From assembly GCA_947631665.1 (NCBI GenBank), contig CANRMF010000004.1:1-64000 (forward strand): a stretch of 64,000 bases of DNA, read 5' to 3'. Below the pieces are notes generated by a model that was given only the letters and a program-made list of their open reading frames with translations, searched no databases and was not told the origin of the DNA. The position numbers were made by a program, and so were the translations under genes. This document shows, piece by piece, positions 9,661 to 60,535 of this stretch (positions are counted from its first letter, which is position 1; the number at the start of each line of letters is the position of its first letter). The stretch is from an uncultured Lachnospiraceae bacterium. Its GTDB lineage: Bacteria; Bacillota; Clostridia; Lachnospirales; Lachnospiraceae.

Positions 9661-9788
9661 TTTTCATGTATCAGACCGATTGAAATTACTTTCACATCAG
9701 CCGATTAAAATTGCTTTCACGTCAGACTGCTTAAAATTGCTTTCACATCAGACTGCTTGAATTTGCTTTCGCGTCAGACCGATAAAAA
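9661..9788. repeat. About 26-bp imperfect tandem repeat (about 5 copies) between trpG and trpD, overlapping the trpG stop
   Basis: TTGCTTTCACGTCAGACTGCTTAAAA / TTGCTTTCACATCAGACTGCTTGAAT / TTGCTTTCGCGTCAGACCGATAAAAA plus two more diverged copies. Confidence 0.85.
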
Positions 9789-22276: not shown

Positions 22277-22340
22277 AGTCACCTCGAACATTCGTTGCTT
22301 TCTTTGTTTATTATAGGCTTATTTGCTTAAAAATACAACA

Positions 22341-22439
22341 TTTTTACAAAAATTAGAGCGAATTATTACTATATTTTTACAAAAAAATGAGGGAATATTC
22401 ACTATAAATGTACAAAAAGATGAGGGAATTATCAAAAAG
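22341..22439. repeat. 33-bp imperfect tandem repeat x3 upstream of the AAA_14 ATPase gene
   Basis: TTTTTACAAAAATTAGAGCGAATTATTACTATA / TTTTTACAAAAAAATGAGGGAATATTCACTATA / AATGTACAAAAAGATGAGGGAATTATCAAAAAG. Confidence 0.8.
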
Positions 22440-59764: not shown

Positions 59765-59832
59765 AAAAAGTTGATAGGCTGACAGTTTATATTATTTCTG
59801 ATGTGGCTTATTTTATGAAAAGAACATCGAAA

Positions 59833-59868
59833 AGAACATTCTGCTTTTGGCGGAATGTTCTTTTTTTC
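59833..59868 (+). terminator. Intrinsic terminator of the CNNM/CorC gene
   Basis: AGAACATTCTGCTTTTGGCGGAATGTTCTTTTTTTC. Confidence 0.92.
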
Positions 59869-59883
59869 TGCTGCTAATCCGAA

Positions 59884-60400
59884 TTACATGTATATTTGTG
59901 CGAATCAGTAAGTTTTACATGTAAAAGTCTCTTGCTGCGCATATGTGGCGGAGTGAATTTACATGTATATTTGTACAAATAAGCAAGTTTTACATGTAAA
60001 AATCTCTTGCTGCGCATATGTGGCGGAGTGAAATTACATGTATATTTGTGCGAATCAGTAAATTTTACATGTAAAAGTGCCTTGCAATACATGAGTGGCG
60101 GGGCAAAATTACATGTATATTTGTTTGAATAAGCAAATTTTGCATGTAAAAGTGCCTTGCAATACATGAGTGACGGGGCGAAATTACATGTATTTTTGTA
60201 CAAACAAGCAAGTTTTACATGTAAAAATCTCTTGCTACGCATACATGGCGGGGTAAATTTACATGTATATTTGTACAAATAAGCAAGTTTTACATGTAAA
60301 ATTGCTTTGCAATACATAGGTGGCGGGGCAAATTTACATGTATATTTGTTTGAATAAGCAAGTTTTACATGTAAAAGGCTCTTACTACGCGTGAAATGTG
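59884..60400. repeat. 75-bp tandem repeat array, about 7 copies, each with two TACATGTA palindromes
   Basis: Unit starts (TTACATGTATATTTGT) at 59884, 59959, 60034, 60109, 60184, 60259, 60334: exact 75-bp register. Confidence 0.97.
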
Positions 60401-60479
60401 TTATAATAACGAAGAAAAGGCACCGACGCCTGCGTCAGGAGGCATTTGACGACTAACTGCCATCGAAACGCCAGTCGAA

Positions 60480-60505
60480 ATGGTATAATGGTATAATGGT
60501 ATAAT
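60480..60505 (+). promoter_or_regulatory. Triplicated overlapping extended -10 elements (TGGTATAAT)
   Basis: ATGGTATAATGGTATAATGGTATAAT; 8-bp unit x3. Confidence 0.6.
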
Positions 60506-60535
60506 AGAATAAATTCACGTATGGAGGATAAAATC

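Follow-up and report, generated by a model that had tools for sequence, protein, structure and literature searches.

Helically phased repeat arrays scattered through gut bacterial genomes appear to be target sites of an undescribed nuclease family, with its own repeat sequence in each lineage

An array of inverted repeats and its relatives in the genus

We studied a 64-kb stretch of DNA (the window) from a genome of 2.0 Mb, G000. A tandem array lies in the window between a terminator-like hairpin, which stands 3' of an upstream CNNM/CorC gene (identified by Pfam CNNM), and a promoter-like sequence, so that both flanking features of the original prediction are found in the sequence. The features are as follows.

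59830..59870, + strand: intrinsic-terminator-like hairpin, GAACATTC...GAATGTTC followed by a T-run; left border of the array
59882..60390, + strand (orientation from the AAATTACAT...ATGTAAAA asymmetry): tandem array of seven 75-bp units, from TRF and the sequence
59884..59924, no strand: unit 1, 41-bp inverted repeat TTACAT-N29-ATGTAA, from the sequence
59959..59999, no strand: unit 2, 41-bp inverted repeat, from the sequence
60034..60074, no strand: unit 3, 41-bp inverted repeat, from the sequence
60109..60149, no strand: unit 4, 41-bp inverted repeat; its right-hand site, at 60141, is TGCATGTA
60184..60224, no strand: unit 5, 41-bp inverted repeat, from the sequence
60259..60299, no strand: unit 6, 41-bp inverted repeat, from the sequence
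60334..60374, no strand: unit 7, 41-bp inverted repeat; its linker merges into the downstream promoter-like sequence
60381..60412, + strand: putative promoter-like TTACTA...TATAAT, by reading the sequence; right border of the array

TRF returned a period of 75 with 6.8 copies, 0% indels and 83% matches, in agreement with the seven exactly spaced units that had been proposed. Exact copies of the palindrome TACATGTA occur 13 times in the 64-kb window, all of them inside the array (dinucleotide shuffles expect 0.39), and the fourteenth site, at 60141, is the one deviant; the palindrome centres are 31 bp apart within a unit and 44 bp apart between units, and the counts and spacings of the original prediction were reproduced on re-checking. 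The 12 columns of the TTACAT and ATGTAA arms are constant over the seven units. Variable columns number 19 of 34 in the linker and 8 of 23 in the spacer, and register is kept despite this sequence drift. Neither free variation in unit length nor palindromes conserved no better than linkers was seen.

Other short repeats were noted in the window. A short AATGGTAT repeat lies at 60479-60512, immediately 5' of a zinc-ribbon ORF, and two further short tandem arrays lie at 9670-9788 (26 bp x 4.6) and 22340-22432 (33 bp x 2.8), at neither of which was a phased inverted-repeat array of the TTACAT type detected.

The genome-wide look for the unit that had been suggested gave, by BLAST with the window array, about 10 additional places in G000. 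These additional arrays, at 74 bp, follow one common plan of TTACAT, 29 bp, ATGTAA and a 33-34-bp linker, with inner spacer and linker alike within one array and different from array to array. In an alignment of 54 units from 27 arrays in four genomes, the invariant columns are the half-sites TTACA and ATGTAA, with a secondary AAA peak at the centre of the inverted repeat, and the inner half-sites (GTA/TAC in the window array) vary among arrays. The 8-bp palindrome, although present in the window array as predicted, is therefore a local form of a larger element, since only its outer half-sites are invariant across other arrays. What is conserved is TTACAT-N29-ATGTAA, an inverted repeat of 41 bp that has an A-tract at its centre.

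In the examined part of G000 the longest solo TTACAT array, of 10 units, was found at L096:7624-8328 (G000:C16, about 41.6-42.3 kb), 3' of a large surface-type protein and 5' of a cysD-like gene. An isolated TACATGTA was also noted inside a coding sequence resembling the C-terminal part of Cas9 (L006:1300-1800; G000:C2, about 23 kb).

We compared genomes of the genus, mostly draft MAGs, with a sequence profile. Counts were about 143 units in G000, 148 in G011 and 185 in G022, these high values being approximate as the number of scored candidates was limited; 46, 36 and 23 units were counted in G002, G012 and G013, and 0 or 1 in the other 17 members. The arrays sit in gene gaps of every orientation, divergent gaps included, next to unrelated housekeeping genes, which argues against the proposed role of the window array as an operator acting locally on the zinc-ribbon gene.

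TTACAT arrays were additionally found in Agathobacter, Dorea and Butyrivibrio. Flavobacterium and Blautia parvula were rejected as carriers, their genome-wide counts being equal to the reversed-pattern control. One real-looking four-unit array of 74 bp, with degenerate TTACATAT/TATGTAA arms, was noted in Blautia parvula (L203:846-1300), in a genome otherwise at chance.

We identified differences in array content between close relatives. The window array has 7 units in G000, 8 in G011 and 4 in the corresponding neighbourhood of G022. An array between dusB and argH is present in G000 and G011 and missing in G022, and one beside lexA (G000 C1:35 kb) is missing in G011. Similarly, an array of about 560 bp between divergent genes (G000:C1:105 kb) has an alignable, empty site in G011 that holds a short unrelated stretch instead and no clear target duplication; this comparison is compatible with either insertion or loss.

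Whole-turn spacing of the units across phyla

In a pattern scan of named genomes, the same plan with other inner arm bases (TTACATACT..AGTATGTAA and TTACATAAATTT..AAATTTATGTAA) was present in Fibrobacter and Treponema among the matches listed. Unit counts against the reversed pattern were 30 versus 1 in Treponema G195, 30 versus 3 in Fibrobacter G196 and 11 versus 0 in G194. Unit spacings in these two groups fall at 62-64, 73-75, 83-86, 93-96, 135-137, 168 and 180 bp. Whole arrays with periods of 84-85 and 95 bp are among them, and the values 62-64, 135-137, 168 and 180 are single spacings.

A set of 36 spacings from Treponema, Fibrobacter and others, thinned so that each array contributes a single value for any number of turns, fits a period of 10.46 bp with phase near zero (R=0.89), a fit equalled in 0 of 20000 random sets. 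The fit holds without the 73-76 class of seven turns (again 0/20000), and as the seed scan demanded about 72-77 bp, spacing classes outside that range were not selected for. A second, independent set, drawn from arrays beside homologs of the nuclease described below, gave a period peak at about 10.4-10.5 bp (R=0.77; 0/20000 random). The spacings are thus whole multiples of about 10.5 bp, indicating that units share one face of the double helix; the window array, with its period of 75 bp, has seven turns per unit. The one-face arrangement foreseen for the window array is therefore seen again in other genomes and in other arm families. Within units, AAA/TTT triplets are most frequent at the unit centre and 9 bp to either side of it (positions -9, 0 and +9: 0.39, 0.43 and 0.36, versus about 0.05 between); as these peaks are pooled over 29 loci, phased A-tracts are common to different arm families.

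Two further readings of the arrays were weighed. The units could be transcribed stem-loops of an RNA hairpin array, and the + strand does fold better than shuffles (z = -10), with G-U pairing possible in some linkers. However, Rfam matches are all sub-threshold with none at the gathering score, RNAalifold on 54 units finds the arms alone (covariation term -0.34), whole-turn spacing belongs to double-stranded DNA, and the arrays are found between genes of any orientation, divergent pairs among them, making this reading highly improbable. A neutral satellite, arising from slippage or unequal crossing-over alone, would suit arrays that are homogeneous within and variable in copy number, but the invariant arms beside free linkers, the helical phasing and the association with a nuclease gene leave it scarcely any credibility. 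This accords with the view of the original prediction that the array acts at the DNA level and is not random satellite, the arms being conserved far better than the linkers.

A nuclease-like gene family beside the arrays

By all-against-all comparison of the genes surrounding arrays in three phyla, we identified one gene family adjoining arrays in G000, G011, G022, Fibrobacter and Treponema, at distances of 0-155 bp. The proteins of the three phyla are 273-292 aa long. G000 has a single copy (G000:C10:23691-24527), adjoining another TTACAT array, and the partner gene is absent from the 64-kb window; the window array would be a solo, non-autonomous copy, and its partner is likely the gene on that other contig.

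The family consists of a variable N-terminal domain and a PD-(D/E)XK-like nuclease domain. Three divergent members have no match in Pfam or NCBIfam at the curated cut-off, and no sequence relative of the array-adjoining protein was found in the PDB. Over its C-terminal 115 residues the protein matches the end of PDC-S68, a PADLOC family of candidate defence proteins (5e-26), and, less strongly, the PADLOC HEAT_CxxC_PDDEXK profile (1e-5). An AlphaFold model built with 34 homologs has a pLDDT of 93.7, and its best PDB fold matches are the nucleases Bax1 and DrdV, at E values of 0.005-0.04 that are weak on their own; the N-terminal half gave no recognisable fold match. The acidic residues E168, D199 and E214 are invariant in the 34 homologs, and the predicted core fold and these acids fit membership of the PD-(D/E)XK superfamily. 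Catalysis is uncertain, because the active-site motif reads WEHFG and the canonical ExK (motif III) lysine is not evident.

A profile search of the genus identified close orthologs in G000, G011, G022 and G012, with the gene present as fragments in G012 (an incomplete genome with 36 units), and 1-5 divergent paralogs in seven other members. Up to six orthogonal copies occur in one genome. No cognate gene was detected in G002 (46 units) or G013 (23 units), indicating that arrays can persist without the gene, and these arrays are possibly orphans left by gene loss.

We counted arrays beside homologs blind to arm sequence. An adjacent array of at least 3 units was found at 29 of 37 homolog loci, and two further loci have two units; the detector returned 0/43 control loci and 0/185 shuffles. 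No array was found within about 1.5 kb of homologs L287, L285, L291, L302, L311 and L316, the last on a short fecal contig. Units at homolog loci are 33-44-bp inverted repeats with long spacers. They lie 5' of the gene at 27 of the 29 loci, with totals of 159 upstream versus 51 downstream and some loci flanked on both sides. Beside divergent paralogs we identified arm families with their own periods, of which the following are a part.

GTACCCC/GGGGTAC, period 94 bp
ATTACGTG/CACGTAAT, period 71 bp
ATCTGTACC/GGTACAGAT, period 72 bp
TACGAAT/ATTCGTA, period 53 bp
CTAGTAGC/GCTACTAG, period 54 bp
TGCACCC/GGGTGCA, period 63 bp
GTACCCG/CGGGTAC, period 65 bp
GTGGGTGC/GCACCCAC, period 64 bp

Dispersal is seen in the GTACCCC family too, the complete genome G019 having 40 GTACCCC units in about 13 places (control 0).

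Arm sequence corresponds to the N-terminal domain. In Lachnospiraceae, N-domain identity is 68-93% for same-arm pairs and averages 24% for different-arm pairs, the highest different-arm value being 70%, between the TGCATAG and TGCACCC families. L278 and L280, with different arms, are 96% identical in the C-domain and 49% in the N-domain. As arm differences track this domain, it is likely, to judge from the sequence comparisons, that the N-domain reads the arms. Common ancestry contributes to the correspondence, as the arm labels agree in part with the protein tree. TTACAT proteins of different phyla (G000, Fibrobacter and Treponema) have N-domain identities of only 22-25%, indicating that arm sequence is not simply predicted by N-domain similarity.

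The match to PDC-S68 raises the reading of a defence or toxin-like module, in which the nuclease attacks DNA and the arrays serve as self markers, titration sinks or restraining control sites, and the presence of the same domain in other AAA/helicase proteins would be in keeping with it. We consider it distinctly unlikely, since the C-terminal domain alone is shared, sampled proteins of that kind have no arrays, the arrays, with up to about 180 units, are spread beyond any single defence locus, and inspection by eye of the flanks that were read revealed no defence genes as neighbours. The sampled proteins (L303-L310) served as eight controls with the C-terminal nuclease domain only; none has an array, and their nuclease domain matches PDC-S68. 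They were seen to be larger proteins, several probably helicase/AAA fusions, that end in the nuclease domain of the array partner.

An element of phage or plasmid origin was also considered and rejected. Viral contigs gave five single-match hits to the arm pattern and no relative of the nuclease, there was no full-length plasmid match to the nuclease, and one fecal 'phage' contig has no array.

Proposed mode of action and comparison with known systems

Our favoured explanation, which we regard as probable, sees in the window array a solo copy of a system of two parts, repeats and nuclease, that would work much as REP/RAYT does but from unrelated components. The first part would be a helically phased array of inverted repeats, repeated at whole helical turns, with arms (TTACAT/ATGTAA in the window) about 35 bp apart centre to centre and A-tracts at the unit centre and about one turn to either side. 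The second would be a protein of 260-300 aa, whose variable N-terminal domain most likely reads the arms and is joined to the PD-(D/E)XK-like nuclease domain. One dimer would bind both arms of a unit, and whole-turn spacing would align successive dimers on one face for cooperative binding. The nuclease may then cut or nick in or beside the array, and repair and unequal recombination would follow, by which arrays would expand, homogenise and occasionally spread to new gene gaps. We judge it quite likely that the protein binds its own arrays; that it cuts at them, and so spreads and homogenises them, we hold to be an even call.

The same architecture could instead belong to a protein that is mainly an architectural or regulatory DNA-binder, with the arrays as operator or anchoring sites and the nuclease fold inert or rarely used; phased arrays would then curve the DNA, regulate the gene that encodes the protein and give structure to the chromosome. 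Both the helical phasing and the phased A-tracts are in keeping with a wrapped or cooperative complex, and the upstream excess of units at homolog loci and the dispersal through intergenic gaps point the same way. We nevertheless think this reading unlikely. The patchy distribution within one genus, with presence or absence among close relatives, and the orthogonal copies within single genomes are easier to reconcile with a selfish or mobile element than with a conserved function of the host, as are the invariant nuclease acids.

The closest analogue, by resemblance of organisation, is REP/BIME/REPIN with RAYT. Repeats flank a RAYT gene and evolve together with it, and their number correlates with the gene (PMC2817692). 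Our arrays are likewise dispersed extragenic palindromic repeats with an enzyme gene beside or among them; the repeats flank that gene, although the enzyme differs, and their sequence co-varies with it. Unit counts, taken from few independent genomes, are 143-185 where the gene is present (G000, G011 and G022), 36 with gene fragments (G012), 46 and 23 without it (G002 and G013) and 0-1 in the other 17 members. In contrast, the enzyme here is PD-(D/E)XK-like and RAYT is a Y1 HUH tyrosine transposase, the repeats here are long-spaced and in helix phase where those of REP are short hairpins tagged with GTAG/CGTC, and ours form tandem arrays with periods of 5-9 turns. The Y1 HUH transposase (PF01797) has no match in G000, G011 or G012 and has matches in G004, G013 and G014; with no match in G000 or G011, membership of RAYT/REPIN was rejected.

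The genome-wide family, the nuclease genes with co-varying arms and the presence/absence polymorphism go beyond the original prediction, and we found no prior description in the open-licence PMC literature. Taken together, the repeats and the enzyme look like a type of system in gut bacteria that has so far gone unrecognised. We give equal weight for and against its being an undescribed class of selfish or domesticated repeat-nuclease systems, with exchangeable DNA-reading domains, one-face assembly that expands and spreads arrays, several orthogonal copies per genome and cross-phylum transfer. If true, the REP/RAYT logic would have been arrived at a second time and independently, with a restriction-type fold and the geometry of the double helix in place of an HUH enzyme and hairpins. 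About twenty natural arm/N-domain pairs would offer a readable recognition code, and the whole-turn rule would make it possible to test directly how proteins keep count of helical turns along DNA.

Other systems resemble the arrays in part. The sopC centromere of the F plasmid and iteron centromeres are built of units a few helical turns long, tandemly repeated and each carrying an inverted repeat, to which a protein encoded nearby binds. The present arrays have similar units and a partner gene nearby, with binding predicted; unlike those centromeres they are many and dispersed over the chromosome, with paralog-specific arm families and a nuclease-like partner, and no partition-protein family is among the Pfam matches of that partner. 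The Rpn and PD-(D/E)XK 'transposase' families and TnsA have a PD-(D/E)XK-type fold and a possible role in recombination in common with the partner protein, which, however, has no Pfam match to them; we know of no tie between these families and phased repeat arrays. PDC-S68 has a homologous C-terminal nuclease domain, but it stands at the end of a much larger protein of about 1200 aa, and the sampled genes have no array.

The proposed system would also explain tandem arrays of gut Lachnospiraceae otherwise mistakable for satellite DNA or a stray CRISPR-like array. CRISPR repeats are similarly partly palindromic and regularly spaced. No Cas genes were recognised beside the arrays read, and unlike CRISPR the units are near-copies over their full length with no unique spacers, the intervening segments drifting along the array.
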